DNA of 62,787 nucleotides, taken from a virus. Shown here piece after piece: positions 143-46,657 of this stretch. Each line of letters starts with the position of its first letter. The first letter of the stretch is position 1. Below the pieces are notes generated by a model that saw only the letters and a list, made by a program, of their open reading frames with translations, made no database searches and was not told where the DNA came from. Position numbers and translations under genes: made by a program. The DNA is taken from positions 1 to 62,787 of the IMG/VR virus record IMGVR_UViG_3300028423_000849. One strand, written 5' to 3'.

Positions 143-217
143 AGACGAGTAGCTCAGTGGTAGAGCAACTGATTTGTAATCAGTGGGTCGGGAGTTCGAA
201 TCTCTCAGCCGGCACCA
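143..217 (+). tRNA. tRNA-Thr(TGT) with unpaired acceptor stem
   Basis: D arm (GCTC/GAGC), anticodon arm (ACTGA/TCAGT around TTTGTAA, anticodon TGT) and T arm (GGGAG/CTCTC) are all well formed, and the 3' end AGCCGGC-A-CCA is normal for tRNA-Thr. The seven bases at the expected 5' acceptor position (AGACGAG, 143-149) do not pair with AGCCGGC, where GCCGGCT would be expected. The gene is therefore either non-functional as drawn, repaired after transcription, or a recombination or assembly artefact. A late-promoter-like AATAAATA (128-135) lies directly upstream. Confidence 0.7.
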
Positions 218-1991: not shown

Positions 1992-4718
1992 ATGAGCTAT
2001 GTAGATGCATTCTACGACAAGAACAAAGACTTGGTCCGTGTGGCTGAGCGAACCTCTCAGGGCCGTATACTGGTCGATCACAAACCCGAATACTTGTTTT
2101 ATGTGGCTGATCCCAAGGGCAGCCATCGCAGCGTGCACGGCGATCCTGTGTCAGAAATACGCTGTAAGAACCTCAAGGATTTTCGCAAAAATGTAGGCAT
2201 GAATCGTCACAACAAACTTTTTGAAAGTGACGTTAAGCCCTTGAACAAAACCATTGCTAGACACTATTCTAATGCAGAGCCTCCTCAGTTGCAGACTGCA
2301 TTTTTCGATATTGAGGTGGATTTTGATCCACAGCGTGGCTATGCCAGTCCCGAAGAAGCCTTCATGCCCATCACCAGCATTGGCGTGTATCTGCAGTGGA
2401 TGGAAGCCATGGTGTGTTTGGCTGTGCCTCCCAAGACCCTCACCAAACAACAGGCACAAAACATTGCAGACAGTGTGCCAGGTGTAATACTGTTTGACAC
2501 AGAAAAAGACATGCTGGATGCTTTCTTGAATCTCATTGAAGATGCTGATGTGCTCAGTGGCTGGAACTCAGAAGGCTATGATATTCCTTACACAGTGAAC
2601 AGAATCATCAAAACCCTAGGCAAATCCGAAACGCGCAAACTGTGTCTGTGGGATCAACTGCCCAAGGAGCGCAACTATGAGGCCTTTGGTCGTGAAAATC
2701 AAACCTATGATCTCATTGGCAGAGTGCATCTAGACTACATGCAACTGTATCGCAAATACAACTATGAAGAGCGACACAGCTATCGCCTGGACTACATCGG
2801 CGAGATGGAAGTAGGAGAGAAGAAAGTTGCCTATGAAGGCAGTCTAGACAGACTCTACAATCACGACTTCCAGCGTTTTCTAGAGTACAACATTCAAGAT
2901 ACACTGTTGCTGGACAAACTGGATCGCAAACTGCAGTTCATTGATCTGGCAAACACCATTGCACATGACAACACTGTGCTGATCCCCACAACCATGGGAG
3001 CAGTGGCAACCACAGAGCAGGCCATCATCAATGAAGCACATCGCAGAGGCTTTGTGGTGCCTGATCGTGTCAGAGAGGACAAAGAGAACACACAGGCTGC
3101 GGGTGCTTATGTGGCATTTCCCAAAAAAGGCTATCACGGCTGGGTAGGCAGCATGGACATCAACAGTCTATATCCCAGTGTGTTTCGTGCACTCAATATG
3201 GCACCTGAGACCATTGTGGGTCAAGTGAGAACCAACCACACAGAGTCAGAGATATCTGCCAAGATGGCCGGAGAATGGTGTGATCCCAACACAGGCAAAA
3301 CAGCAAAAAAATCCAGCTTTGCAGATGCATGGTTGGGCAAGTTTGGCACCAATGAGTTTGAGATGGTGCGCAACAGAGACAGCAATATCACCCTGCACCT
3401 AGACATGGAAGATGGCACACAACTAGAGCTCACAGGTTCAGACATATACAACTTGGTGTTCAACAGTGACCAGCCATGGAACATCTCAGCCAATGGCACC
3501 ATATTCCGCACAGATTTTCAGGGCATTGTGCCTGGGTTGCTGGAACGCTGGTATGCAGAACGACAAGAGTTGCAGAAGAAGAAAAAGTCTGCAGACACAG
3601 ACGAACAAGGAGCATTCTGGGACAAACGGCAGTTGGTGAAGAAGATTAACCTAAACAGTTTGTATGGTGCAATCTTGAATCCAGGTTGTAGGTTCTTTGA
3701 CAAACGCATCGGACAATCAACCACACTCACTGGCAGGCGCATTACCCGACACATGGGTGCAAAGACCAATGAACTGCTTGCAGGTGAATATGATCACACT
3801 GGCAAAACCATCATATATGGAGATACAGATAGTGTGTACTTCAGTGCAGTGCCAGTGCTACCCGATGACACTGAGCTGGATCTAGAAAGTGCACTCAAAC
3901 TCTATGATCATGTGTCAGACACAGTGAGTGAGAGTTTTCCTACGTTCCTCAAAGAAGAGTTCAATGTGCCACTGAGTGCTGGTGCTGTGATGCAAGCAGG
4001 ACGTGAAGTGGTTGGCCAAGCTGGCCTGTTTATAACCAAGAAACGCTATGCCATCAAGTGTTTGGACATAGAAGGATATCAGCCCGAAGGAGGCAAGTTA
4101 AAAATCATGGGCATGGATATCAAGCGATCTGACACGCCTGAGTTTATTCAAGAGTTTCTTGAGGAAGTCCTTGACGATGCACTCAGCGGTCTCACAGAGA
4201 AACAGGTGCTTGACAAGATCAGAGACTTCAAGTTACAATTTAAGGAAATGGATCCTTGGCTCAAAGGCATGCCCAAGCGTGTGAATAATCTCACACACTA
4301 TACCAAGAAGTATCAAAAGCTCAAAGGCACTGACAAAAGCGATCCTTTTGCTAGAAATAGGCTCAGCAAGCTCAAAGAACTTGAGCCTAAAAACAACATG
4401 ATACCCGGGCATGTCACTGCCAGCATACACTGGAATTATCTGAAAAGCATGCACAACGACAACTACTCAATGAGTATCACAGACGGCATGAAAGTGATTG
4501 TGTGCCGACTCAAAAGCAATCCCATGGGCTATGGATCTGTGGCATATCCTGTGGATGAGCTACACTTGCCAGACTGGTTCAAACAGTTGTCCTTTGACTG
4601 TGAAACTATGGAACAAGCAGTTCTCGACAAAAAGATCACCAATGTGCTAGGTGCAATGAAATGGGATCTCAGTCGCATCAATGACAGTGGCGCTCTCGAC
4701 GAATTTTTTGAATTTTAA
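1992..4718 (+). CDS. 43: Family B DNA polymerase (T4 gp43 type)
   Basis: A 908-residue replicative polymerase. The 3'-5' exonuclease motif FDIEVD lies near residue 105, motif A DINSLYPS near 389 and motif C YGDTDS near 609. Length matches T4 gp43 (about 900 residues). The start is supported by AAAAGGAG 6 nt upstream. The last residues are LDEFFEF, resembling the C-terminal peptide with which T4/RB69 gp43 binds the sliding clamp. The same seven residues end the DpdA-like protein at 7335. Its stop overlaps the start of the next gene (TAATG). Confidence 0.97.
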   Translation: MSYVDAFYDKNKDLVRVAERTSQGRILVDHKPEYLFYVADPKGSHRSVHGDPVSEIRCKNLKDFRKNVGMNRHNKLFESDVKPLNKTIARHYSNAEPPQLQTAFFDIEVDFDPQRGYASPEEAFMPITSIGVYLQWMEAMVCLAVPPKTLTKQQAQNIADSVPGVILFDTEKDMLDAFLNLIEDADVLSGWNSEGYDIPYTVNRIIKTLGKSETRKLCLWDQLPKERNYEAFGRENQTYDLIGRVHLDYMQLYRKYNYEERHSYRLDYIGEMEVGEKKVAYEGSLDRLYNHDFQRFLEYNIQDTLLLDKLDRKLQFIDLANTIAHDNTVLIPTTMGAVATTEQAIINEAHRRGFVVPDRVREDKENTQAAGAYVAFPKKGYHGWVGSMDINSLYPSVFRALNMAPETIVGQVRTNHTESEISAKMAGEWCDPNTGKTAKKSSFADAWLGKFGTNEFEMVRNRDSNITLHLDMEDGTQLELTGSDIYNLVFNSDQPWNISANGTIFRTDFQGIVPGLLERWYAERQELQKKKKSADTDEQGAFWDKRQLVKKINLNSLYGAILNPGCRFFDKRIGQSTTLTGRRITRHMGAKTNELLAGEYDHTGKTIIYGDTDSVYFSAVPVLPDDTELDLESALKLYDHVSDTVSESFPTFLKEEFNVPLSAGAVMQAGREVVGQAGLFITKKRYAIKCLDIEGYQPEGGKLKIMGMDIKRSDTPEFIQEFLEEVLDDALSGLTEKQVLDKIRDFKLQFKEMDPWLKGMPKRVNNLTHYTKKYQKLKGTDKSDPFARNRLSKLKELEPKNNMIPGHVTASIHWNYLKSMHNDNYSMSITDGMKVIVCRLKSNPMGYGSVAYPVDELHLPDWFKQLSFDCETMEQAVLDKKITNVLGAMKWDLSRINDSGALDEFFEF

Positions 4719-4993
4719 TGAAAAAGACTCTATCAACCACAGAACGCATGGCTCGCTATAGAGCATTTCGTGAAGCTGTTGCAGACACAGCAGTGGCATT
4801 TTCCATCAATGTGCCGCTGAACTTTGTGATGGTGTGGGTAGCATTTCAGCTGAAATTTTCAGCGTGGCAAACCAGTATAATGCTAACCACAGTGTTCACT
4901 GTTTTTGCAATAGTGAGAAAAACCTACATAAGATTGCATTTTCAAAAAAAATACCAGAAAACCGGCTCGTATGAGTCAAACGAACCTAAATAG
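4718..4993 (+). CDS. Small two-span membrane protein
   Basis: A 91-residue protein that starts inside the stop codon of the polymerase gene (TAATG), so it is likely translationally coupled. Residues about 25-44 and 48-66 are hydrophobic and look like two membrane helices. The N-terminus (RMARYRAFREAV) and C-terminus are basic. A similar RxRxFREAxxDT-type protein occurs in other phages as far as I recall, without known function. Confidence 0.7.
   Translation: MKKTLSTTERMARYRAFREAVADTAVAFSINVPLNFVMVWVAFQLKFSAWQTSIMLTTVFTVFAIVRKTYIRLHFQKKYQKTGSYESNEPK
4985..4992 (+). promoter_or_regulatory. Possible late promoter box CCTAAATA
   Basis: CCTAAATA overlaps the stop of the membrane protein gene and lies 24 nt before the clamp start. 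It differs from NATAAATA at one core position, so it is a weaker candidate. Confidence 0.35.
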
Positions 4994-5016
4994 AACACAC
5001 ACAGGAGAAAACACAC

Positions 5017-5772
5017 ATGGCAGACAACTATATCAAAGACACACTCAAGGATGTGCTCAAGCACACTCATAGCCTGGGCATTTTTGAGATGGTAAAAATC
5101 TCAGGCACCATGGACGAAACTGTGGTTGAAACAGTGGATGCTGAAAAAACAGTGATCTTCAAAGGCAAGATGACAAAACCAGTTCCGGACTTTGCTGACA
5201 ACACAGTGGGTCTAAGTCGCATGAGTGTGCTTGACGGTTACTTGAAATTTCCAGGATTTGATGATGATGCTGCCACTGTGCGTGTGACCACACAGGAGCG
5301 CAACGGTCAAACTGTGCCCACAGAAGTTGAATTTGTCGCAGAGGACGGCACCAATGCCAACTATAGGTTTATGCTGGCAGAAGTGATCAATCAACAGCTC
5401 AAGGAGATCAAATACAAAGGCGCAGACTTTGATGTGAACATTGTGCCCACGCAGAAAAATCTCAAGGACCTAGCATACTTCAACAGCGTGCTCGGACAGT
5501 TTGAGAGCACATTTTCACCCCGCACTGAGGATGGCAAATTGTATTTCTACATCGGCGACGGCGGCGGAGACAGAACAAAGATTCTTGTCAATGATTCTTC
5601 CGAAGGAGATATCACACATGAATTTCATTGGCCGTTGGACATTGTGCTGAAAATTCTACGTCTCAGTGAAAGCAGCAATGTGGTGATGAGTTTTAATGCC
5701 AAGGGATTGATGCAGATTGTGGTGCACAGTGGACTCAGCGAGTACACATATCTACTTCCAGCAAAAGGCTAA
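5017..5772 (+). CDS. 45: Sliding clamp (T4 gp45 type)
   Basis: A 251-residue protein, close to T4 gp45 (228). The predicted fold is alternating strands with the C-terminal SGLSEYTYLLPAKG typical of clamp C-termini. The ribosome site CAGGAGAA precedes the ATG. In T4 the trimeric clamp holds the polymerase on DNA and also activates late transcription. It lies between the polymerase and the DpdA-like gene, both of which end in a clamp-binding-like peptide. No clamp loader genes (44/62) are present in this window. Confidence 0.85.
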   Translation: MADNYIKDTLKDVLKHTHSLGIFEMVKISGTMDETVVETVDAEKTVIFKGKMTKPVPDFADNTVGLSRMSVLDGYLKFPGFDDDAATVRVTTQERNGQTVPTEVEFVAEDGTNANYRFMLAEVINQQLKEIKYKGADFDVNIVPTQKNLKDLAYFNSVLGQFESTFSPRTEDGKLYFYIGDGGGDRTKILVNDSSEGDITHEFHWPLDIVLKILRLSESSNVVMSFNAKGLMQIVVHSGLSEYTYLLPAKG

Positions 5773-5775
5773 AAC

Positions 5776-7335
5776 ATGGACCTAGCAAGACGCCAAAGAG
5801 ACTATGCAGTGTATCTGCCTGCTATTAGCAGTTTCTATGCCAAGCAGCTGGAAAAAATCACTGTGCGCAACCGTGAAAACAGCAGAGTGCCGGAAGGGTT
5901 TGAGCATGGCAACGAAGGACTTGATTTTCTCAAACCCAAAGACACTTACTTTCACTATCCCTATGGACTTTACAGTGCAGGGCATGCTCATCTAGACATT
6001 GACAAAAGCAACACCGATGAACCCATGATTCAAGATCGAGATAGATCAAACACAGTGATCTTGGGCGACTCGGGCGGTTTTCAGATTGCCACAGGTGTGC
6101 TCAAAATGGACTGGAGCAATGCCAAGGATCCAGAAGATCCTGCACGCATAAAAATCTGCCATGATATTCTACACTGGCTGGAACACACAGCAGACTGGAG
6201 CATGACCTTGGATATTCCTGCGTTTGCTGCAGTTGAACCCTTGAGCACAAAGACAGGCCTCACAGAGTTTGATGACACACTGGATATCAGCCTGTTGAAT
6301 TTGGATTACTTTGTAAAAAATCGCACACCAGGCAAAACCAAGTTTCTCAATGTGCTCAGTGGCACAGACGAGAGCACCAGCAAGCGTTGGTACGACAGTG
6401 TTAAGCATTTCAGCGATCCTGGCTTTGTGGAATCCAACTATGGCGACAAGGAGCGTGTGCTAGAAGGTTATGCGTTTGCTGGCATCAACATGAAGGATAT
6501 GAGCTGTGTGCTAAATCGCATACTTGACCTCAGAGCAGATGGATTGCTGGCAGGCAAGGACTGGATTCATTTCCTGGGCACAGGCAAACTGCAGTGGGCA
6601 TGCTATTTGACAGCAATTCAGAGACAGTTGCGCAAGCACGACAACCCCAATATCACACTGAGCTTTGATGCTGCATCACCGTTTGTGAACACTGCATATG
6701 GCCAAACCTATGCGCACAACTTTTTTGAGCCAGGCAAGTTTGGTTACTTCATGGACAGAGCTTTTGATTCACAGGAACTGAAGAACAGTGATTTACCTGT
6801 GCCATTTGCTCACTCGCCAATCATGAGTCGACTCACCATGGGCGATATCTGTGCTATGGCTGAAGGTGACAAGGACAAGAATGGCAAAATCAAGCGCACA
6901 CAAGGCCAGGTGCTCCTTGACAAAGAAGGCAAGCCCAAGTTGGATGCTGACGGCAATGAAACGTATGCAGAAAAAGACTGCACCAGCTGGGATACACAGA
7001 GCTATCTCTACTATATGGCACACAGCGTGTTCAATCACATCGATGCTGTGCAAGAAGCAAATCGTCTTGCAGATGTGGAATCATACAGAGAACATGTGGA
7101 CTACAGATACTGGAAAAAACCACAGAAAAGAAACAGCAAAGCAGGCGAAGTGTCTCCATATGTGCCTGTGAATATACTGCTGTTTAAGAACTTTGTAGAG
7201 GACCTGCTTGATCCACAGTGCAAAGACCCCAAAGGCATGGTGCAGGCATATTCTGAATTTCTGCAATACATTAGTTTTGGCAGTGACGACAACGACCGCA
7301 AAGAGGAAGTGTTAGATGAATTTTTTGAGTTTTGA
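5776..7335 (+). CDS. dpdA: DpdA-like DNA 7-deazaguanine transglycosylase
   Basis: A 519-residue TGT-superfamily protein. The motif GDSGGFQ (Asp near residue 98) matches the substrate-binding motif of tRNA-guanine transglycosylases, and SFDAASPF near 296 fits the position of the nucleophilic Asp. Phage TGT paralogues named DpdA exchange guanine in DNA for preQ0 or related bases. FolE, QueE and a QueD-like gene nearby support a DNA role. The C-terminus EVLDEFFEF repeats the last seven residues of the DNA polymerase (LDEFFEF). The gene starts 3 nt after the clamp stop. Assignment as DpdA rather than tRNA TGT rests on context and length. Confidence 0.82.
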   Translation: MDLARRQRDYAVYLPAISSFYAKQLEKITVRNRENSRVPEGFEHGNEGLDFLKPKDTYFHYPYGLYSAGHAHLDIDKSNTDEPMIQDRDRSNTVILGDSGGFQIATGVLKMDWSNAKDPEDPARIKICHDILHWLEHTADWSMTLDIPAFAAVEPLSTKTGLTEFDDTLDISLLNLDYFVKNRTPGKTKFLNVLSGTDESTSKRWYDSVKHFSDPGFVESNYGDKERVLEGYAFAGINMKDMSCVLNRILDLRADGLLAGKDWIHFLGTGKLQWACYLTAIQRQLRKHDNPNITLSFDAASPFVNTAYGQTYAHNFFEPGKFGYFMDRAFDSQELKNSDLPVPFAHSPIMSRLTMGDICAMAEGDKDKNGKIKRTQGQVLLDKEGKPKLDADGNETYAEKDCTSWDTQSYLYYMAHSVFNHIDAVQEANRLADVESYREHVDYRYWKKPQKRNSKAGEVSPYVPVNILLFKNFVEDLLDPQCKDPKGMVQAYSEFLQYISFGSDDNDRKEEVLDEFFEF

Positions 7336-11696: not shown

Positions 11697-12395
11697 ATGA
11701 AAAATCACAAATACAAATACCAAGAAATTGCAGATCGTATCCGAGATGCTGACGCCCCATACTGGGCCAAAGACAATATCAGCCGATTCATCCTTGAAGG
11801 CGAACAAGAAACGCTCATCGACGAGCTCACAGAAAAGTTTGAAGGTGTGTTGGATGCACTGATCATTGATCGTGACAATGATCCCAACAGTCACGGCACT
11901 GCTCAAAGATTGGCTAAAATGTATTTCAATGAGCTCATGCAGGGAAGATACTGTAATAAGCCTGCTGTGACCGCCTTTCCCAATGACGGCGATGATCCCT
12001 ACACAGGCATGTTGGTTGCGCGTGCGGAAATAAAAAGCATGTGCAGTCACCACCATCAGCCTGTGACAGGCGTGGCCTATATTGGCATTATTCCCAACGG
12101 GCAAGTCATCGGCCTCAGCAAGTACGTTCGACTGGCACAGTGGTGTGCTCGACGTGGCACATTGCAAGAAGAGTTGGCCAACGACATTGCCAGAGAAATC
12201 GTCTCAGAAACAGGCAGCAAAAATGTGGGTGTGTACGTACAGGCCACACATGGTTGCTGTGAGAATCGTGGCATTGGCGCACACAGCAGTCTCACACAGA
12301 CCACTGTGCTCAAAGGATCGTTTCTCAACGACGCAGGCACCAAGAAGGAGTTTTTTGACAACATCAATCTGCAACAACAGTTTTCTCCTAGGTGA
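11697..12395 (+). CDS. folE: GTP cyclohydrolase I (FolE)
   Basis: A 232-residue enzyme. The zinc ligands are seen as C116-SH-H119 (CSHHHQP) and the second Cys in GCCENRGI near 187. DNDPNSHGTAQRLAKMYFNEL matches the N-terminal helical region and the IGLSKYVRLAQWCARR block is the family core. FolE makes dihydroneopterin triphosphate from GTP, the first step to preQ0 as well as folate. With QueE and a QueD-like protein it supports 7-deazaguanine synthesis by the phage. Confidence 0.93.
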   Translation: MKNHKYKYQEIADRIRDADAPYWAKDNISRFILEGEQETLIDELTEKFEGVLDALIIDRDNDPNSHGTAQRLAKMYFNELMQGRYCNKPAVTAFPNDGDDPYTGMLVARAEIKSMCSHHHQPVTGVAYIGIIPNGQVIGLSKYVRLAQWCARRGTLQEELANDIAREIVSETGSKNVGVYVQATHGCCENRGIGAHSSLTQTTVLKGSFLNDAGTKKEFFDNINLQQQFSPR

Positions 12396-12499: not shown

Positions 12500-13033
12500 A
12501 TGATCTCACTGAGAGGACCAAACAATGTAATGGTGGTAGATCGCACTGCTGTTCCGGTTGAACAGGTCTGCGAACAGGTTCTCAGCACACAGTTCGCTGA
12601 TCAAGTGCTAGAACAGTTTCCCATAACCACCGAAGAACTGTTTGCTTGTCTAGAGGTGTTCAGCGACACACAAGGACCCATAAACAATGACTTTGTTAGT
12701 ATTTCGTGTGTGAAAACAGATGACGGTGATGTTGAACTGGAGACCACGGCAGTCAGCGATTGGGTATACATTACCGCTGTATATCTAGGAGAGCAAGTCA
12801 CACAAAACGAAGAACGATTTGACACCTTGTATGCCTATGGCATGGAGAGTGTGATGTATGACTGCTTGCTGGATATGCAGAACGGCAGATCCAGTTTCAA
12901 TCACAGTGACATACACAGAATAGTGTTTGACGCATTTGTGGAAGCCTACGGCGATCTCACAGACGATGATGTGGTCAAACTCATAGAAAGTCTCAAAGAG
13001 GAAGGATTCCCCTATGACGACACTGAAGTATAG
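12500..13033 (+). CDS. Hypothetical acidic protein
   Basis: A 177-residue protein, start chosen at the ATG with GAGGAG 7-12 nt upstream; an in-frame ATG far upstream has no ribosome site. It is acidic with no recognised motif and no membrane span. Its last 20 nt overlap queE, so the two are probably translated together. The region upstream (12396-12499) holds only a weak late-box-like GTTAAATA at 12419. Confidence 0.6.
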   Translation: MISLRGPNNVMVVDRTAVPVEQVCEQVLSTQFADQVLEQFPITTEELFACLEVFSDTQGPINNDFVSISCVKTDDGDVELETTAVSDWVYITAVYLGEQVTQNEERFDTLYAYGMESVMYDCLLDMQNGRSSFNHSDIHRIVFDAFVEAYGDLTDDDVVKLIESLKEEGFPYDDTEV

Positions 13034-13937
13034 CGAAACATTTTATAGCTCACAGGGCGAAGGCCATTACATGGGCATACCCAGCCTATGGATGAGATTT
13101 TTCCTGTGTAATCTACAGTGCAACGGTTTTGGACAAGATGACCCCACTGATCCCGATAGCTGGGAGTTGCCCTATGAAAACATTGACATCTCAGATGTCA
13201 CAGATGTCACTGAGTTGCCTGTGTTCAGCAAAGGCTGTGACAGCTCATACACATGGGCCAAACGTTACAAGCATTTGATCACAGATCGCAGTGTGCCTGA
13301 TGCTGTTGATGAACTCACTGCACTGCTGCCAGGAGGCAAGTTTCAGCATCCTGCTACCCAACAGTGGGTTCACATGGTGTTCACAGGCGGCGAGCCCATG
13401 CTGAAAAACACACAGCCGGGCATGAGTGCTGTGCTTGAAGAATTTGCACAGCGTGATAATCCATGCCGCTTTGTGACCATTGAGACCAATGGCACCAAAC
13501 CTATTACCACAGAGCTTGCAGACTGGATTCAGCAGAGATTTCTAGGAAGCAGTGAATATGATGGCACAGTGCCAGACCACTTAGGTGAGCCGGAGTGGTT
13601 TTGGAGTGTGAGTCCCAAACTGTGGAGCACTGCGGGTGAGAAAACAGCCAAAGCCATACAACCCGAGGTTGTAGGTGAATATGCCAAAGCAAGCAATCGA
13701 GGTCAGCTGAAATATGTGGTCAATGGCAGCAAAGAAAGTTGGCGAGAAGTTGAGGAATACACACAGTGGTTCCGCGAAGCAGGAGTGGATTGGCCTGTGT
13801 GGATCATGGGCGTGGGTGGCACAGTGGAAGGACTCAAGCTCACAGAAGCAGACATTGCTGATGAAACCATACAGCGTGGATACAACTATACCACTCGTGC
13901 GCATGCACACATCTATGGCAACGCCATTGGCAAATAA
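13014..13937 (+). CDS. queE: QueE-like 7-carboxy-7-deazaguanine synthase
   Basis: A 307-residue radical SAM enzyme. The N-terminus SETFYSSQGEG and GIPSLWMRFFLCNLQC are typical of QueE, as are FTGGEP near 124 and FVTIETNGT. The iron-sulfur cysteines appear as C32-x3-C36 with the third, C75 in GCDSSYTW, displaced by an insertion of about 38 residues; ordinary QueE has CxxC at this place. The enzyme rearranges carboxytetrahydropterin to carboxydeazaguanine. The C-terminal half WFWSVSPKLW and QLKYVV fits the family. Confidence 0.88.
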   Translation: MTTLKYSETFYSSQGEGHYMGIPSLWMRFFLCNLQCNGFGQDDPTDPDSWELPYENIDISDVTDVTELPVFSKGCDSSYTWAKRYKHLITDRSVPDAVDELTALLPGGKFQHPATQQWVHMVFTGGEPMLKNTQPGMSAVLEEFAQRDNPCRFVTIETNGTKPITTELADWIQQRFLGSSEYDGTVPDHLGEPEWFWSVSPKLWSTAGEKTAKAIQPEVVGEYAKASNRGQLKYVVNGSKESWREVEEYTQWFREAGVDWPVWIMGVGGTVEGLKLTEADIADETIQRGYNYTTRAHAHIYGNAIGK

Positions 13938-22495: not shown

Positions 22496-23596
22496 ATGGA
22501 TACACTAACAGTAAAACCCACACAAGTCGCCAGCATTGTAGGTCGCGCGGCACAGGTACAACGCCCCATCTTTATTTGGGGTCCTCCAGGCATTGGCAAA
22601 AGTGAGCTAGTGCAGAACATCACAGATGGGTTGGGCAACAGCACGCTGATTGATCTCAGATTGGCTCTGATGGAGCCTACAGATCTACGAGGCTTCCCTT
22701 TCCGTAATCCAGAAACCAATACCATGGAATGGGCACCGCCAGCGGACTTGCCCGGCCAGGAGTTTGCTGATCAATATGATCATGTGGTGCTGTTCCTGGA
22801 CGAGCTCAACAGTGCTCCGCCCAGTGTGCAGAGTGCTGCCTATCAGTTGATCCTGAACCGCAGAATCGGTCAGTACCAGTTACCGAAGAATGTGATCATG
22901 ATTGCCGCAGGCAACCGTGAAACAGACCGTGGTGTAACATATCGCATGCCAGCACCACTGGCAAACCGTTTCCGTCATGTGAACATGGCTGTGGACTTTG
23001 GCGACTGGCAACAGTGGGCCATCAACAATGATGTGCACCCTGATGTGTTAGGCTATCTCAGCTATGCCAAGCAGGATCTCTTTGACTTTGATCCCAAGAC
23101 CAGTTCACAGGCATTTGCCACACCGCGCAGTTGGACGTTTGTCAGTGAGATGCTCACAGACACTGAGTTTGACAGTGCTGACATCTCAGAGCAGAAAGCA
23201 GAGATTGCAGGTGCAGTTGGTGAGGGCATGGCAGGCAAGTTCATTGAACACAGACGCATTGCCAGCAAACTGCCTAACCCAGAAAACATCTTGGATGGCA
23301 CAGTGACCAAGTTGGACGACAAGCTGAGTACAGAACTCAGCGCCAAGTACAGTCTCGTGGTTGGCCTAACCTATGAGATCAATCAACTCTACAAAGAGCA
23401 AGGTCTCAAAGCAGACTTCAAGAAAAAATTCAACACTGCTGTGAGATTTGCATATGACAACTTTGAGCCTGAGATGGTGGTGCTACTGTTCAAGACCATC
23501 ATGTCGGACTACAAGATCAAGTTCAATATTCGCACCGATTTGGACAAAGATGTCTACAAGGTGTTCTCAGAGCGTTACACCAGATACATCGTGTAA
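22496..23596 (+). CDS. MoxR-like AAA+ ATPase (CobS-like)
   Basis: A 366-residue AAA+ protein. Walker A GPPGIGKS lies near residues 29-36, Walker B VVLFLDELNSAP near 97-108, and sensor 1 MIAAGN near 139-144. Phage relatives are often labelled CobS, the cobalt chelatase ATPase, because of similarity. Here it is paired with a VWA-metallopeptidase-like protein, the usual MoxR partner. It has its own promoter and is followed by a terminator, so it is regulated alone. Confidence 0.9.
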   Translation: MDTLTVKPTQVASIVGRAAQVQRPIFIWGPPGIGKSELVQNITDGLGNSTLIDLRLALMEPTDLRGFPFRNPETNTMEWAPPADLPGQEFADQYDHVVLFLDELNSAPPSVQSAAYQLILNRRIGQYQLPKNVIMIAAGNRETDRGVTYRMPAPLANRFRHVNMAVDFGDWQQWAINNDVHPDVLGYLSYAKQDLFDFDPKTSSQAFATPRSWTFVSEMLTDTEFDSADISEQKAEIAGAVGEGMAGKFIEHRRIASKLPNPENILDGTVTKLDDKLSTELSAKYSLVVGLTYEINQLYKEQGLKADFKKKFNTAVRFAYDNFEPEMVVLLFKTIMSDYKIKFNIRTDLDKDVYKVFSERYTRYIV

Positions 23597-23660
23597 CACA
23601 GTCAATGGTGCTGGGTCCTACTACTCCTACTCCTCCGACCTACAACCCAGCACCAGTGTC

Positions 23661-23684
23661 GCCCCCCGCATAAGGGGGGCTTTT
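23661..23684 (+). terminator. Rho-independent terminator
   Basis: GCCCCCC (23661-23667) and GGGGGGC (23674-23680) form a perfect stem with a 6-nt loop, followed by TTTT. Confidence 0.92.
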
Positions 23685-23699
23685 AATAACAAATGTAGG

Positions 23700-23727
23700 T
23701 TGACACAGCAGACAATTCTGCTACAAT
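23700..23727 (+). promoter_or_regulatory. Sigma-70 promoter with conserved leader, copy 3
   Basis: TTGACA at 23700-23705, a 16-nt spacer and TACAAT at 23722-23727 preceded by TGC. The leader is a shorter version (GTGTAGGTAACA then AGGAG) of copies 1 and 2. Confidence 0.85.
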
Positions 23728-23754
23728 AGTAGTGTAGGTAACAAGGAGTAAACA

Positions 23755-25041
23755 ATGAGCACAGACATTAGCAAATCAGCAAGCCAGGTAGCAACGCCAG
23801 ATATTCCTGAGACTGCTAAAACATCAGCACAAGTTGAAGACATGCTGATCAAAGCTCGGGTAAAAATGCTGCTGAGTGCGCCTTTCTTCGGCAACTTGGC
23901 AACTCGCTTGCACTTCATTGATGCCACAGAGTGGTGTCCCACTGCTGCCACAGACGGCAAAAACTTCTACTACAATCGCAACTTTGTGGATGCACTAACT
24001 GAAAGTGAGCTGATCTTTTTGATGGGTCATGAGGTTCTGCACTGTGTGTATGATCACGTGAATCCAGACCATGTGAACAACCGAGATCGTCGTTTGCTGA
24101 ATGTTGCACAGGACTATGTGATCAATCATGACCTAGTTGAGGCACGCATCGGCGACATGATCCGCTTGGTAGATATCTGCTACAATCCTGCATACCAGAG
24201 CTACACTGCAGATGAAATCTATGATATCTTGTTCAAGCAAGCAGAGGAAGAAGGTCGTGTGGTTGAAATGCCCACATTGGACATGCACTTGGACAGCGAA
24301 GGTGAAGGTGACAGCGACAGTGAAGGCGGCGAAGGCAACCAAGATGGTGCCAAAGGCCCAATACAATACAGCAAGGAAGAGCTAGAGCAAATTCGCAACG
24401 AGATGCAGAGCGCTGTGATGCAGAGCGCAAAAGTCAGCGGCGCAGGCAATATGCCAGGCGGCGTGCGTAGGCTTTTGGACAAACTGTTGAACCCACAACT
24501 GGACTGGCGTGAGCTGCTGGCAATGCAGATTCAAAGTGTGGTCAAGTCCGACTACACCTGGATGCGTCCCAGCCGCAAAGCACAGAGCGCAGACATGTAC
24601 ATGCCAGGCATGGACAATGAGAACACTGTGGACCTTGCTGTGGCCATTGACACATCGGGTTCCATTTCAGAAGACATGCTGCGTGACTTCCTCAGCGAAA
24701 TTCACAGCATCATGAGCCAGTACAATGACTTTACACTCCGTCTGTGGTGCTTTGATACTGCAGTACACAATCCACAAAAGTTCACAGCAGACATCAGTGC
24801 AGACCTCCTAGAGTATGACATCCAAGGCGGAGGCGGCACTGACTTTGATTGTAACTGGGCATACATGAAGGACGAAGGCATTGCGCCAAAGAAGTTTGTG
24901 ATGTTCACAGACGGATACCCTTGGAACAGCTGGGGCGACGAAAGCTACTGTGACACACTGTTTATTGTGCACGGCGGGCATGGCGGTGAAACACCCACAG
25001 CACCGTTTGGCATTACTGTGCCCTACACCAGAGAGCAATAA
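23755..25041 (+). CDS. DUF2201-type metallopeptidase plus VWA domain protein
   Basis: A 428-residue protein. The N-terminal part has the zinc-peptidase signature HEVLH near residues 92-96 (MGHEVLHCVYDH). A Glu/Asp/Gly-rich linker spans about 178-200. The C-terminal VWA domain carries the MIDAS motif DTSGS near 299-303 and GGTDF near 361. This is the layout of VWA-like metallopeptidase proteins that partner MoxR AAA+ ATPases. It probably forms a chaperone or protease-like complex with the ATPase upstream. Confidence 0.85.
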   Translation: MSTDISKSASQVATPDIPETAKTSAQVEDMLIKARVKMLLSAPFFGNLATRLHFIDATEWCPTAATDGKNFYYNRNFVDALTESELIFLMGHEVLHCVYDHVNPDHVNNRDRRLLNVAQDYVINHDLVEARIGDMIRLVDICYNPAYQSYTADEIYDILFKQAEEEGRVVEMPTLDMHLDSEGEGDSDSEGGEGNQDGAKGPIQYSKEELEQIRNEMQSAVMQSAKVSGAGNMPGGVRRLLDKLLNPQLDWRELLAMQIQSVVKSDYTWMRPSRKAQSADMYMPGMDNENTVDLAVAIDTSGSISEDMLRDFLSEIHSIMSQYNDFTLRLWCFDTAVHNPQKFTADISADLLEYDIQGGGGTDFDCNWAYMKDEGIAPKKFVMFTDGYPWNSWGDESYCDTLFIVHGGHGGETPTAPFGITVPYTREQ

Positions 25042-27521: not shown

Positions 27522-28205
27522 TTATTTGAATCCAATCTGCATATATCGGGTGTAGATGGGCAATTCTAGTTTGCCTTCAAATAACACTTCACTCATTGGA
27601 TACCTTTCACGCATCTCTGCTCTACTTGCGCACACATTGGTGTGCCCGTCGAAGTGTTCACTGTTGTTGGTCTGCATGATCACAAGTTGGTCCTCTGCTA
27701 CACTGTCAAACCATTCTGTGCTCATGTGTTCACTGCTGGTGTTAATAACAACATCGGGCGTGACTTCTATGAGTTCGCCACTGGTTTGAAACTGCATAAA
27801 TGCACAGTCGAGCATGTTTACGTCTGCTACTACGCCCTTGTAAAGCCAATCTTGTTGTACTAGCCTTTGATTGAACTTTTCGCTGAGTTCAATGGCACGA
27901 GGATCTTGATCAAATCCATATACTTTGTTTATGCGTGGAGTTAGGTCGATCAGTGGCTCTACCAGTGTGCCAATCCAACAACCCAGTATAGCCACAGTAA
28001 GATTCGACTTTGACAGTCCTACAGCATCGGCATGCTGAAGTAACCATGCTTTGCTGGCCAGCTGACCTAGGCTAAATGCATCTCTGGGGTATTCAGGTTT
28101 GCTTGCTCTCTCAAGATAGCTGGGCCGGATCCACATTCCGCTTTCTGTGTCTAGCCACTGCTCGACCTGCTGCCAATCACTTAATGTTGTGCTGATATTC
28201 ATCAT
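27522..28205 (-). CDS. Class I SAM-dependent methyltransferase-like protein
   Basis: A 227-residue protein starting at ATGATG with AAGGAG upstream; it overlaps the end of the repeat protein gene by 29 nt. VAILGCWIGTLVEPLI is a motif I-like strand-turn-helix and KVYGFDQDPRAIEL the acidic loop, typical of class I methyltransferases; VVINTSSEHM follows. It is the last gene of the minus-strand block and could methylate a sugar or small molecule made there. Substrate unknown. Confidence 0.7.
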   Translation of the reverse strand: MMNISTTLSDWQQVEQWLDTESGMWIRPSYLERASKPEYPRDAFSLGQLASKAWLLQHADAVGLSKSNLTVAILGCWIGTLVEPLIDLTPRINKVYGFDQDPRAIELSEKFNQRLVQQDWLYKGVVADVNMLDCAFMQFQTSGELIEVTPDVVINTSSEHMSTEWFDSVAEDQLVIMQTNNSEHFDGHTNVCASRAEMRERYPMSEVLFEGKLELPIYTRYMQIGFK

Positions 28206-31200
28206 ACTGCTCCTTGAGCCACTCATAGTCATTGATTTTGGCTAACCTCATGGGTTTGTTAGCATTGGCTTCGGCATAGTCGATGCCTGCTTGAGCGCCT
28301 GCTTTGGCTTCTTCTCTGTAATCCACCCCCGGTATAGGAAACAGCCAGCTCTGCAATCTCACACGTGAATCTTCATCGTCTTTCATGCTGAGTTTCACAC
28401 ACTCTCTGAATGCACTGCGCCATGTGCTGAAGCCGTCGGTGTTAAACTTAGTGGTACAGCTGATTTCGGGCATGGCTTTGAATCTACTGCTAAGGCCTGT
28501 GGTAAAGTCTAGACCCCAGCTGGTAGCATCACGAACCTGCTCGGTGTTAAACAGCTTTATGCCTCCGTAGCCATACTCGTGACCTGTGAGAGGATTTCGC
28601 GCATTCCACACGTGTGTAACTTCTTGATCATATACATCAGGAATATAGCTAAAGTCAAAGTCTTCGGAAACCTCGGCATCAGCATCTACGACCCAAAACA
28701 TAGTGCTCTGTACCTGCATAGCTGCTTGTTTGTGCGCTTCGAATATGCCTTCTACATCTTTGATCCAATGCGTATCAAAACGCTGTGTAAGACGTTTGTA
28801 TGCAGTCTCAGCCCCTGGTTCGTGATAGCTGATAAACACAATTTCATAGGATTTATATGTGCAACCTGGTGTTTGCATGTACTGCAGCTGTTTGAAACGG
28901 TTCAATCTGAGGTCGTCGCTGGTGGTTTCGGAGTAGTCTCTGTGAGTGGGCCACAGTCGAAGTCCGCCATAGCCGTGCACTTTCTCTGTGGTAGGGTTAA
29001 TCTTCTGCCACACATGAATTTTGTTGATGTTTGTGATCTCAGGCACAAAACCAGACTTTACAACCTGTTTCTGTTCTTCCACGTCTGGATCCACTGTCCA
29101 CATATAGTCATAGCCCTGCTGTTTGTATTCTTGTATTTTTTCCAAGAATTCGTCTCTCTTGAATTCAGTGATATGATAGATGGGCCATTCCTGCGTGGTG
29201 CTGGCAACAGTGTTTATCAATTTGAGATTGGGGAAACTGTTGTTGTTGATTTCTTTGGTAGTGTACTCGTGGCCTTGTGCATAAGTGCCCTTGGGATACA
29301 GTCTCACCCCTGTGTAGACATCTGCTGATGTGGAAAACACATGCACATTGTTTGCATCCCACTGAGTAGGATAGTAGTCGAAATCAAAATCTTCGTCGAG
29401 TTTCACAAAAGGGTCAACTACCCAATACATGTCTACGTCTGTGCTTGCTTCAAACTTTTCTAACTGTGCTACAATATCTTCTCTGTTATCCAAGTAATAG
29501 GTAGGATATGTTTTGTGTACACTGGCCGGCTCTCTGATATACTTGGGCCTCCCTTTGGTCTTGGGCTCTCGTGGACACAGCATCACACCGCCATAGTCAT
29601 ATTGCCTCTGAGTTTTTGGATTCAGTTTCTGCCACACATGTGTTTTGCCCTCGTCCCACACTTCTGGCACATAGTTGAAACTGAAGTCATCCATAACGTC
29701 AACATTGGGGTCTACCACCCAGAACCAGGCCTGTGATGTTTTTTCTCTGCCTTCTTCTTGACTGTGAAATACCTCATACTCTACTCTGCTGTTTCTCAGC
29801 TCGCCTCTGTGCACCACAGGCGCTTCTTTGGGATTAGATCTGGGCACCAAGTAGATGCCGCCTTCCTTGTCCGGGTATTTTTCTGTGAGTTGACCACTGA
29901 GCTTGAAGTTGATAATGTTGGTCTGTTCATCAAAGTCAGGCACATAATCCAGTTGATCAATGCGGTATCCCGAGTCTACCATCCAGAACATTTTTGTTCT
30001 GCTCTTCTTGGCATAGGTTTCAAACTGTGTGACATTGTTGGTGCGAAACACATCATATTTCAGAGGTGTTACACCTGCATGATACTTTTGCTTGGTTATG
30101 TCAAAGTCTCGATGTACCAGTCGAATACCTCCGCATCTTGAATCATATGGCTCTGTGATATTTTCTGGATAGCGAAAGTCTAGATGTCCGGGCAACTTGA
30201 ACACATGTATGTATTCCTGTTCGTGTTTGGCCGGCACATATAACAGTTTGCCATTGAAGCGAAAGTTTCTGTCAACCATCCAAAACCACTCGGTGCGGCT
30301 ACGCTGTGCATATTCTGTGTATGTGTCAGCAGTGAATTCATCGCTGTCAATGTAGAATACATCATAGTTGATGTCTTCAATGGGGCAATCTTGATGCACT
30401 TTGAGATCTGCATTTTTCCACTTTTTGGGAACAAGTCGAATACCGCCCATGGCTTTTGGATATTTCTCAGTGAGTTGGTTGGGCATGCGAAAACTGTGTA
30501 TCATCTGATCCTCAAACGGATTAGGCACCCAGTCTAGTGTGTTTGACTGCAGTTGATATTCTCTGTCAACAATCCACACATACTCTTCTGAGTACACATC
30601 ACGCTGAGTGTAGTCATCAACATCCTCACACCATATCACTGGGTATTCAACACCAGCATCCAAAAAACCATGATACTTGATATTAGCATCTTGCCACTCT
30701 CTGGGGTATAGCTTGATGCCGCCTTCCAGTTCCGGGTACTTGTGCTCCAGTTGATTTCTCAGATGAAAACTGTGTATGTACTTGGGCTCAAAGTTATCTG
30801 GTGCCCAGTCAATGTGATCGTTGAGTTTGTATTCTGGGTCCACACACCACACATGTGTGGCATAGGGATTGCGATCAAAGTATTTGCCCGGTGTCTTGGT
30901 GTTTACTATGTCAAAGCGTTTGCGGCACACAATGCGATTTACTTCTTTGATGCCTTGACTTTCACTGCGAGGCATGAGTTTGATGCCTCCATAGTTGTTG
31001 TTGTCCCATTTCCAAATATGTGTGTAGACTTGATCGTGATCAGGTGGGCGATACTCCAGCACGTCGTAGTTTAGCAATTCAACGTTGGGTTCGATAAGCC
31101 AGAACATTTTGGTGTTGGCTTCTACTTCTCTTTCACTGTCAATCCTCTGAGCAAAAGGTATATGCTCGCACAAGCTGGAATTTTCCCCTATATAGTATAC

Positions 31201-31218
31201 ATCAAACAATGTGTTCAC
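28177..31218 (-). CDS. Giant repeat protein: nine GT-A-like modules
   Basis: A 1013-residue protein built of nine related units. Each has an aromatic-W-x-[VI]-[DE]-x-x core (near residues 38, 122, 213, 311, 410, 498, 597, 705 and 840), then a [YW]xP block, an IH/HVW or HxF block and GG[IV]+L. The last unit is the most complete, with VFISYHEPGAE before it and a C-terminal part like the GT-A-type protein at 54786. DxD-like residues (VDADAE, VDPDVE) survive in only some units, so most are probably degenerate. Overlaps its neighbours by 4 and 29 nt. Confidence 0.8.
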   Translation of the reverse strand: MNTLFDVYYIGENSSLCEHIPFAQRIDSEREVEANTKMFWLIEPNVELLNYDVLEYRPPDHDQVYTHIWKWDNNNYGGIKLMPRSESQGIKEVNRIVCRKRFDIVNTKTPGKYFDRNPYATHVWCVDPEYKLNDHIDWAPDNFEPKYIHSFHLRNQLEHKYPELEGGIKLYPREWQDANIKYHGFLDAGVEYPVIWCEDVDDYTQRDVYSEEYVWIVDREYQLQSNTLDWVPNPFEDQMIHSFRMPNQLTEKYPKAMGGIRLVPKKWKNADLKVHQDCPIEDINYDVFYIDSDEFTADTYTEYAQRSRTEWFWMVDRNFRFNGKLLYVPAKHEQEYIHVFKLPGHLDFRYPENITEPYDSRCGGIRLVHRDFDITKQKYHAGVTPLKYDVFRTNNVTQFETYAKKSRTKMFWMVDSGYRIDQLDYVPDFDEQTNIINFKLSGQLTEKYPDKEGGIYLVPRSNPKEAPVVHRGELRNSRVEYEVFHSQEEGREKTSQAWFWVVDPNVDVMDDFSFNYVPEVWDEGKTHVWQKLNPKTQRQYDYGGVMLCPREPKTKGRPKYIREPASVHKTYPTYYLDNREDIVAQLEKFEASTDVDMYWVVDPFVKLDEDFDFDYYPTQWDANNVHVFSTSADVYTGVRLYPKGTYAQGHEYTTKEINNNSFPNLKLINTVASTTQEWPIYHITEFKRDEFLEKIQEYKQQGYDYMWTVDPDVEEQKQVVKSGFVPEITNINKIHVWQKINPTTEKVHGYGGLRLWPTHRDYSETTSDDLRLNRFKQLQYMQTPGCTYKSYEIVFISYHEPGAETAYKRLTQRFDTHWIKDVEGIFEAHKQAAMQVQSTMFWVVDADAEVSEDFDFSYIPDVYDQEVTHVWNARNPLTGHEYGYGGIKLFNTEQVRDATSWGLDFTTGLSSRFKAMPEISCTTKFNTDGFSTWRSAFRECVKLSMKDDEDSRVRLQSWLFPIPGVDYREEAKAGAQAGIDYAEANANKPMRLAKINDYEWLKEQYDEYQHNIK

Positions 31219-44475: not shown

Positions 44476-45681
44476 TCAATAATTTAGTCTATGTGTAAAC
44501 TGTGTTTTTGACAAAAATGCATTGTGATTGTAATCACAAATTTCTCTGCAACCTCCTAGAAAATCTTTGAGCTCACGGTTGCTGAGATTGCAAAGACGTT
44601 TTGTTTCTTCTAGAATTGCCAGCATTCTGTCGCCGTCATTTTCAATGTTGTCGTAATCTTCGTTGATGAGTGGATCAAAACTCTGATAACCAATCTGCTT
44701 CATTGCTGAGACCATCTTGGGCGTGCTGATGAAAATATGAGGATGTTTGAACACAATGGGCTTAAATGCCTTTTCACTGAAGAATCTTGATTTTTCAAAG
44801 CCTTCGTGACAGGTATAATAGTTGGTTTCAGCAATGAGACTGAAATAGGTTTGTTCATAGAGATAGCTGGTATCATCCATGAGATAAGCCCGATTGGTAA
44901 CTAGATCATTTGTATCTAGATACAAAGGCGGCATGTTGATAATTTCGCCTCGGTGCTTCTTGAGTAACTCCAGTACATCATCAAACATATGATTTATGTG
45001 TATAAGATTTTGCCAATAGTCAGGCCATTTGTTGCCACAGTCGCTGGGTGCTAGGCTCACATAACCCTGGTCAATGAGTCCGTAAGCAATCAACAGTCCT
45101 ACAAAAGTGGGACGCGCTGGGCGCCAGCGTCGATTGAAATTGATAAATTTTTTGGGATAAGGTTTGTACACAAGAGTCTCTGGAATTTCAAACTTTCTGG
45201 AAAACTCACTTTCGAAGTGTAAAAACGTGTGCTTGGTGGCAGCTTCAAAATCCATGCATAGCTCGGCTTTGAGTTTGCCTCGCTGAAACTTGTCACTGGC
45301 TGCTTCAACTGTTTCTGCTAGATCAAAGCTGCCCGAAACCACAATGACTTTTTCTGGGGGTATATGATGTGACAATACTACGTGCTTGTAGATAGGTTCC
45401 ACAATGCTGTCAAATGCCTCGTGACTATTACATATCATCAGATAAGTGGGGTCATTGGGATCTCTGATTTTAAGTATCAAATCCCAGTCTACCAGCGATC
45501 TCAGAGTAAATCTGCCAAGAGCTTCGCCGTCTTTGATTTCAATGTAATAGTAGTCGTTGGCGTCGTCAAAGTCTCTGTAATAGAAAATAAAGGGATCACT
45601 GTCTCTGTGTTCACAGTAGGGCTCCTCTGTGGTGCTACACAAAAAGTAGTAGTTGTTGCGATTAATCACTGCCAACTGCAA
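44476..45681 (-). CDS. GT-like protein with SEKxF motif (copy 4)
   Basis: A 401-residue protein. FFSEKAFKPIVFKHPHIFISTPKMVSAMKQIGYQSFDPLINEDYD near 293-337 mirrors copy 3, including INEDYDNIENDGDRMLAILEE. PKKFINFNRRWRPARPTFVGLLI begins the donor-like domain. Its start lies 20 nt inside the radical SAM gene. Function inferred from the shared pattern. Confidence 0.6.
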   Translation of the reverse strand: MQLAVINRNNYYFLCSTTEEPYCEHRDSDPFIFYYRDFDDANDYYYIEIKDGEALGRFTLRSLVDWDLILKIRDPNDPTYLMICNSHEAFDSIVEPIYKHVVLSHHIPPEKVIVVSGSFDLAETVEAASDKFQRGKLKAELCMDFEAATKHTFLHFESEFSRKFEIPETLVYKPYPKKFINFNRRWRPARPTFVGLLIAYGLIDQGYVSLAPSDCGNKWPDYWQNLIHINHMFDDVLELLKKHRGEIINMPPLYLDTNDLVTNRAYLMDDTSYLYEQTYFSLIAETNYYTCHEGFEKSRFFSEKAFKPIVFKHPHIFISTPKMVSAMKQIGYQSFDPLINEDYDNIENDGDRMLAILEETKRLCNLSNRELKDFLGGCREICDYNHNAFLSKTQFTHRLNY

Positions 45682-46657
45682 TTACCTCCTCTTCCGCAAC
45701 TCTGCGTTTGGGTATGATAATGTCAGTGCCACAGTGACAATGATATTTGTCACAGAGTATGCTCTGTGGTGCAATACTTGAGACATCTTCGAGAATATGT
45801 CCCACAGTGCCACTTTGGCCACAACTGGCCAGACTGATTGATCCCGTGGGGCCAATGAAGATAGCATCGCCAATATCGCACTCCCAGCCTTTGAAAAAGT
45901 TTTGCTTGGCAATGATGATATCATTGCTGTTGGCTGGATTGCTGAGACCGTCTTCATAGGTTGCATAGCTCACGCAGTTGTTCTCACTGTGTGGTTTGTC
46001 TATGGTGAATTGCATTTCGCAGCTGTGAGTGTTGATGAACTCTTCTTTGTCTGCATCATTGTACTGCCATGGTCCAGTATTCACGCTCATTTCATCAAAC
46101 AGTGGTGTCCACTCAATGAAGTAGTTGGGCATGACTTTTTTGAGTCTCTCGCCAAACTCTACCACTTCCCAAAATCTCTCATCGTGCATGAGCATTTTAC
46201 TACTGAGATAGTTGACTTTGTCGCACAAGTAAATGCTTTTTTCTTCATATGCATCTTTGTCCACAAACTCAATGTGAAAACTGGCCACAATGTCATCAAA
46301 TAGATGATGATGTTTTTCCCACCATGCCAGTGGTCGACTAAGGTTGGTGTTTACAGCTATTGTGCATCCAGGCACACGTTCACGCAGCCACTCACAAATT
46401 GGAATAAAGTTCTTCCATGCTGTGGGTTCACCACCCGAGAAGAAAAACTTGAAATACTTGTAGTCTGCTTCTTCATAGCGGTTGATCATATAACCAAGGT
46501 TCTTTACATAAACATCAAGATTGCCTTCGTTGCGATGATCGCCCAGCCAGTTGCCTGGATTACAATAACTGCACTCATAGTTACAGAAGTTGTTGACCTG
46601 CCAATTTACGCTCATATAGCGCCGCGGTGCTTCGATTTCTACGAGTCGTGCGTCCAT
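45662..46657 (-). CDS. Radical SAM protein with C-terminal Cys cluster
   Basis: A 331-residue enzyme. The radical SAM cysteines are C25-x3-C29-x2-C32 (FCNYECSYC) and FFSGGEPTAWKNF carries the SAM-binding GGEP. The C-terminal 90 residues hold further Cys (GWECDIG, LASCGQSG, CDKYHCHCG), suggesting an auxiliary iron-sulfur site in a SPASM/twitch-like region. It differs from the four N-twitch proteins upstream. It is coupled to its neighbours by 19-20-nt overlaps. Confidence 0.85.
   Translation of the reverse strand: MDARLVEIEAPRRYMSVNWQVNNFCNYECSYCNPGNWLGDHRNEGNLDVYVKNLGYMINRYEEADYKYFKFFFSGGEPTAWKNFIPICEWLRERVPGCTIAVNTNLSRPLAWWEKHHHLFDDIVASFHIEFVDKDAYEEKSIYLCDKVNYLSSKMLMHDERFWEVVEFGERLKKVMPNYFIEWTPLFDEMSVNTGPWQYNDADKEEFINTHSCEMQFTIDKPHSENNCVSYATYEDGLSNPANSNDIIIAKQNFFKGWECDIGDAIFIGPTGSISLASCGQSGTVGHILEDVSSIAPQSILCDKYHCHCGTDIIIPKRRVAEEEVIAVGSD

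Follow-up and report, generated by a model that had tools for sequence, protein, structure and literature searches.

A DpdA-like transglycosylase of giant phages carries a putative clamp-interacting peptide shared with the phage DNA polymerase

In the window, a stretch of viral DNA comprising positions 1-62,787 of IMG/VR record IMGVR_UViG_3300028423_000849, a gp43-like DNA polymerase and a DpdA-like transglycosylase end in the same seven residues, LDEFFEF, and a gene whose product is modelled as a sliding clamp lies between them. The DpdA-like enzyme comes from a large family of giant-phage genomes and is thought to swap guanine for protective 7-deazaguanine in phage DNA. A polymerase-like form of the peptide recurs in most relatives, and by analogy with phage T4 the DpdA tail probably binds the phage's own clamp. 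Because DpdA carries the peptide with which the polymerase is fastened to the clamp, the base swap may be tied to DNA replication.

Results

The polymerase and the DpdA-like enzyme share a C-terminal heptapeptide

The genes follow the order polymerase, clamp, dpdA, and in most related loci dpdA directly adjoins the clamp gene. The locus contains the following features.

1992-4718, plus strand: family-B DNA polymerase, gp43-like, 908 aa (PF00136, PF03104; phrog_262, E 7.5e-199)
4695-4715, plus strand: putative clamp-interacting peptide LDEFFEF at the polymerase C terminus (from sequence and the spacing of T4 gp43 SLDFLF)
4718-4993, plus strand: small DUF7220 protein in the gap between polymerase and clamp genes (PF23858, E 4e-7)
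5017-5772, plus strand: sliding clamp of predicted PCNA/gp45 fold, 251 aa (phrog_12062, Foldseek, annotations of homologues)
5776-7335, plus strand: DpdA-like transglycosylase, 519 aa, folded core at residues 1-502 (AlphaFold, Foldseek, motif alignment)
7282-7311, plus strand: variable acidic linker joining the DpdA core to its tail, predicted disordered (pLDDT; variable columns in the window's clade)
7312-7332, plus strand: putative clamp-interacting peptide LDEFFEF at the DpdA C terminus (from sequence and conservation in relatives)

The polymerase matched RB69 gp43 in the PDB (E 8e-57) and ends in ...NDSGALDEFFEF, while the DpdA-like open reading frame (ORF) ends in ...RKEEVLDEFFEF. Both ORFs thereby confirm the common LDEFFEF end reported in an earlier note on this DNA, although that note set its start in the polymerase at 4698, one codon downstream of the actual 4695; the gp45-type clamp gene that it described between the two is present at 5017-5772, with a PCNA fold by structure. 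Among the 340 window ORFs of at least 60 aa, this is the sole pair with a common 7-residue C terminus, against 0.00016 pairs expected from composition. The two LDEFFEF coding sequences are identical at 17 of 21 bases, and three codons differ synonymously.

AlphaFold modelling of the DpdA-like protein (pTM 0.87) gave a confident region at residues 1-502 (mean pLDDT 87), and the core folds alone. Residues 503-519, the last 17, which include the motif as VLDEFFEF, are predicted to be disordered (pLDDT <50) and lie outside the folded core.

The motif is conserved across diverged relatives

Approximately 180 related loci, down to about 30% identity, were compared. Scans of IMG/VR gave relatives ranging from 78% down to about 35% identity; single-query scans with the DpdA of Vibrio phage 2.275.O or of PA5oct returned no loci. 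In 17 of the 18 distinct tails from the window's clade, F occupies each of the two F positions, and FFEF is nearly constant behind a variable linker whose entropy is high a few residues upstream of it. The motif is terminal in this clade and internal in most others, where it directly follows the folded core, 20-40 residues before the end, in forms such as FFEE, SLFE and TFxxLFD; it is kept both with and without a C-terminal extension. As most relatives have the motif at an internal position, a DNA-level constraint from overlapping stop and start signals was ruled out. Within the window's clade, DpdA tails were no closer to the tail of their own polymerase than to that of another genome (p 0.58 and 0.33), and genome-specific matching of the exact heptapeptide was discarded for want of signal. 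The exact 7/7 identity is partly luck, and it is the motif rather than the heptapeptide that is conserved.

The general DpdA pattern, h-x-x-[LF]-F-[DE], is polymerase-like. In counts that are not corrected for descent, [LIMFV]xx[LF]F occurs within the last 45 residues of 90 of 114 distinct DpdA tails (79%), compared with 93 of 1666 control ORF tails (5.6%), 10.4% of shuffled tails and 4 of 1011 DpdA-core windows. The h-x-x-[LF]-F spacing is found in 103 of 105 distinct polymerase tails, and a score matrix trained on polymerase tails alone distinguished DpdA tails from control ORFs with an area under the curve of 0.93. Across about 95 related loci (5,844 ORFs of at least 60 aa), a strict terminal clamp motif was confined to polymerase and DpdA, save for one antisense ORF, and few other ORFs have such ends in the near-complete PA5oct, Vibrio phage 2.275.O and two large contigs. 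The very distant relative 2.275.O has ...NNTDLFDW at the end of its polymerase and ...NNNDLFGW at the end of its DpdA.

The earlier note had proposed comparing the C termini of other DpdA proteins with those of their own polymerases. This comparison was possible for 147 polymerase/DpdA pairs in which both ends were present, and the polymerase-like motif recurred in 145. The residue preceding the anchor Phe is L in both partners of 69 pairs and F in both partners of 66, so that 135 of the 145 are matched in class; same-genome examples (polymerase/DpdA) are TFHSLFEF/TFGSLFET, TLSTFFEF/GFGAFFEE and TFNKFFKF/NFKKFFSP. Mapped on a tree of 91 DpdA cores, the polymerase class switches four times and the DpdA class five times.

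Three further observations concern these tails. DpdA proteins with an internal motif (in loci L127, L133, L040, L027 and L065) have a second conserved acidic element at the protein end, of the DETKLEDLEDEQL type in LF clades and of the IMSGDFE, IMRADFDGE or MMDPAMTGDFFEE type in others. The window's clade lacks this element. In PA5oct (L001:1605-6831) an annotated Hef-like homing endonuclease gene interrupts the polymerase gene, and FDSLFGW is the tail of the C-terminal piece; in the DpdA homologue of Pseudomonas phage PA5oct or Paride the motif lies internally, as FNSLFD. Vibrio phage 2.275.O encodes an 89-aa ORF (L183:4668-4934, plus strand) ending in SSLFEW, resembling the DLFDW and DLFGW ends of that phage's polymerase and DpdA; judged from this end, its product is possibly a further clamp client, for example a gp33-like factor.

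Identity of the clamp and of the DpdA-like enzyme

The protein encoded at 5017-5772 has no sequence match in Pfam or the PDB and matches only phrog_12062, a PHROG of unknown function. The clamp part of the structural model shows a two-domain clamp fold and was matched by Foldseek to PCNA at E 8e-11 (TM-scores of 0.6-0.7 by target); homologues are annotated as clamp or PCNA. Because its model matches PCNA at this level, the protein is, by predicted fold, a sliding clamp.

Foldseek comparison of the DpdA-like model with 350,542 PDB chains placed tRNA-guanine transglycosylases (TGTs) at ranks 1-3 (E 5e-4 to 1e-3, probability 1.0), at modest TM-scores of 0.31-0.37 by query; the non-catalytic QTRT2 subunit was among the best structural matches. 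DSGGFQ (from D98), Asp 146 and Asp 298 are invariant in a 12-sequence alignment reaching down to 30% identity, and by analogy with TGT we presume catalytic roles for Asp 98, Asp 146 and Asp 298. Sequence searches of Pfam, NCBIfam, PHROG and the PDB gave no match to TGT (PF01702), DpdA or DpdA2, and hhalign comparisons with nt-1 DpdA2 (E 0.039) and 9g DpdA (E 0.51) were insignificant. Two genes of 7-deazaguanine synthesis lie downstream of dpdA in the same gene run.

11697-12395, plus strand: FolE, GTP cyclohydrolase I, first step of 7-deazaguanine synthesis (PF01227, E 3.6e-38)
13014-13937, plus strand: QueE-like radical-SAM protein, 7-carboxy-7-deazaguanine synthase (phrog_2076, E 9e-50)

QueD and QueC were not found in the window fragment. 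A homologue 50% identical to the DpdA-like protein occurs in PA5oct, a phage to which a system for making and incorporating deazaguanine has been attributed (PMC7824862). The TGT-like fold, the invariant DSGGFQ and aspartates and the nearby folE and queE-like genes make 'DpdA-like' a fair name for an enzyme with a putative function on DNA. The earlier assignment as DpdA is thus backed by fold and DSGGFQ motif and by no sequence family.

A possible parallel in phage 9g-type DpdA

The DpdA of Enterobacteria phage 9g has experimental support (PMC6884629). Phage 9g has polymerase, clamp and dpdA genes in a row, and in most regions compared from its group an annotated clamp or beta-subunit gene adjoins dpdA or lies one gene away. 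As proposed for the window, 9g-type phages (Queuovirinae) encode a 7-deazaguanine insertion enzyme whose gene neighbours those of a clamp and a polymerase. Unlike the window's protein, to which no sequence relation is detectable, the 9g-type enzyme has 317 aa, its own polymerase lacks the same terminal peptide, and a clamp role for its tip is putative. The 9g DpdA ends in QDLFDE and its relatives in QELF, QGLF, MELF or similar; the tip L and F are invariant in all 12 9g-type DpdA proteins compared, with variable preceding residues. Of the 49 minus-strand ORFs of at least 80 aa in the initial 30 kb of 9g, DpdA alone has an LF tip. This tip resembles the bacterial clamp-binding peptide, which suggests that the 9g-type family may represent the same solution in an independent DpdA family. 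Whether clamp tethering is general and repeatedly evolved among phage 7-deazaguanine insertion enzymes, with a terminal or near-terminal peptide suited to the clamp of the adjacent gene in both the jumbo-phage and 9g-type families, and couples base exchange to replication, we regard as an evenly balanced question.

Other features of the window

Between two ARAGORN tRNAs lies a third tRNA-like match (150-206, plus strand; Rfam RF00005, 50 bits) that ARAGORN did not call. A MoxR-type AAA ATPase gene stands beside one for a DUF2201 metallopeptidase/VWA protein (22496-25041, plus strand). On the minus strand, 28177-31218 encodes a 1013-aa protein that seems by eye to be built from units of about 80-100 residues in which the motifs FW-VD ... 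HVW/HSF ... GGI-L recur. Also on the minus strand, five consecutive genes at 45662-51825 look radical-SAM-like by eye (CxxxCxxC-type motifs), in the same stretch as glycosyltransferase-like genes and a carbamoyltransferase-like gene.

Discussion

The interpretation of the tail draws on T4, in which the polymerase peptide SLDFLF lodges, as one turn of helix, in a hydrophobic pocket that lies between the two clamp domains (PMC12746103), and in which the clamp motifs of gp43, gp55 and gp33 are interchangeable and a gp55-gp33 fusion tolerates the motif at an internal position (PMC2988020). Like the DpdA tail, the T4/RB69 peptides are short, hydrophobic-acidic, at or near the C terminus and preceded by a variable flexible linker; unlike it, they are carried by a polymerase or transcription factors rather than a base-exchanging enzyme, and their binding is proven in T4/RB69. 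As summarized in PMC13216743, which cites Sommer et al. 2004, T4 alpha-glucosyltransferase, unlike beta-glucosyltransferase, co-purifies with gp45; the alpha enzyme also binds gp45 in vitro. It is, as proposed here for DpdA, a phage DNA-modifying enzyme associated with the phage sliding clamp, differing in being a glucosyltransferase that acts on hydroxymethylcytosine. A eukaryotic counterpart is DNMT1, which a PIP box, a PIP-type peptide, holds on the PCNA replication clamp; this system is non-homologous and maintains cytosine methylation in eukaryotes. Clamp-tethered DNA modification is therefore already known in kind, and the DpdA carrier, the breadth and the second family appear to be new. 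In line with the earlier note, which knew of no clamp-tethered DpdA, searches of open-access full text found no link between DpdA and clamp binding.

We propose that behind its transglycosylase core the DpdA-like enzyme has a flexible acidic linker bearing the clamp-interacting peptide, and that the clamp from the gene directly upstream would bind this peptide in the pocket also used by the polymerase tail. A clamp of this kind is expected to encircle duplex DNA as a ring; it would thereby keep DpdA on freshly replicated or otherwise clamp-loaded DNA, where the enzyme could replace guanine with the 7-deazaguanine base processively, either during replication or shortly afterwards. Placing the exchange at the fork would be the natural next step, and like the shared pocket and the action on DNA itself it is something we infer. 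The clamp-binding reading of the tail, put forward in the earlier note, is well supported by its anatomy, the approximately 145 conserved pairs, the class matching and the T4 SLDFLF spacing (PMC12746103), and we consider the tethering account as a whole to be likely.

Several results weigh against this account. The class matching, once corrected for the tree, comes down to two concordant and no opposite independent pairs; co-variation of the classes is consistent but, with so few pairs, falls short of significance. The motif is missing or degenerate in Phosso-type loci, in which dpdA is far from the clamp gene, and in L105 and L089. Modelling of the DpdA tail with the clamp, suggested earlier, produced no docking: since a single TAA separates the clamp gene from dpdA in a common frame, a read-through single chain could be modelled in AlphaFold, and it gave pTM 0.61 and left the tail at pLDDT <50. 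The shallow alignment (31 sequences), the single clamp subunit and the forced joint weaken this test, which still tells against docking more than for it. In T4, the modification share is set mostly by expression level and promoter, not by alpha-glucosyltransferase-gp45 binding (PMC13216743). The earlier note had named related DpdA proteins that lack the tail yet function with unlinked clamps as an argument against tethering; most jumbo-family relatives keep the motif, and tail-less DpdA proteins occur outside the family. DpdA2 of the T4-like Vibrio phage nt-1, which resembles the window's system in lying beside preQ0 genes and in a weak local likeness at IHFLGTG...SFDAA, has no clamp-like tail; the modification level in nt-1 is low, with approximately 0.11% of G as dPreQ0 (PMC6884629). 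The DpdA of Mycobacterium phage Lars (Rosebush species) has no such tip either, and Rosebush DNA contains 96,530 dPreQ0 per million nucleotides (PMC6884629). Because this DNA is heavily modified while the Rosebush-type DpdA is tail-less, heavy modification in general does not depend on a clamp tail.

Clamp binding could also serve a purpose other than replication, such as gathering DpdA on all clamp-bearing phage DNA, including late-transcription sites and recombination intermediates, or a competition for the pocket that keeps polymerase and DpdA apart. T4 clamps serve late transcription too by tracking DNA, with gp43, gp55 and gp33 sharing the motif (PMC2988020), the gp45 trimer offers several sites, and the failure of alpha-glucosyltransferase binding to set the modification share (PMC13216743) points the same way; the polymerase-clamp-dpdA order favours a replication role without excluding such uses, which we think possible though doubtful. 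That the peptide binds some different common partner of polymerase and DpdA, be it a single-strand-binding protein, the phage RNA polymerase or a helicase, would accord with the undocked tail in the co-fold and with the second acidic element following the motif in many relatives. The partner of the T4/RB69 polymerase tail is, however, structurally known to be the clamp, and in most loci no gene separates dpdA from the clamp gene, which renders this explanation improbable.

Somewhat less improbable, if still unlikely, is that a TGT-fold protein with another substrate (tRNA or nucleotides), or an inactive subunit, rides the clamp in place of a DNA-modifying DpdA. The lack of sequence matches to TGT, DpdA and DpdA2, the presence of QTRT2 among the best structural matches and the failure to find QueD and QueC in the window fragment speak for it; against it stand the invariant putative active-site aspartates, folE and queE in the same gene run, the 50%-identical homologue in PA5oct with its credited deazaguanine incorporation system (PMC7824862), and the sense that a clamp tail makes for a DNA substrate. 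Chance, or a functionless gene end recently copied from one neighbour to the other through duplication or 3'-end recombination, would fit two neighbouring genes whose motif codons are so nearly identical. It is scarcely credible given the minute number of pairs expected in the window, and it is contradicted by the motif in some 145 diverged pairs, internal in most and with variable flanks; recent copying of the gene end was rejected on the synonymous differences and the deep conservation.

If the DpdA tail is indeed a clamp peptide, it would give a simple answer to how a phage DpdA targets phage over host DNA, and when: the enzyme would follow the phage's own clamp. Clamp tethering would then be a recurring design in phage DNA modification, beside T4 alpha-glucosyltransferase. 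The tail also provides a sequence mark for spotting unrecognised DpdA families that profile libraries miss, and its mutation offers a clean way to ask whether the timing of modification matters for escape from restriction.

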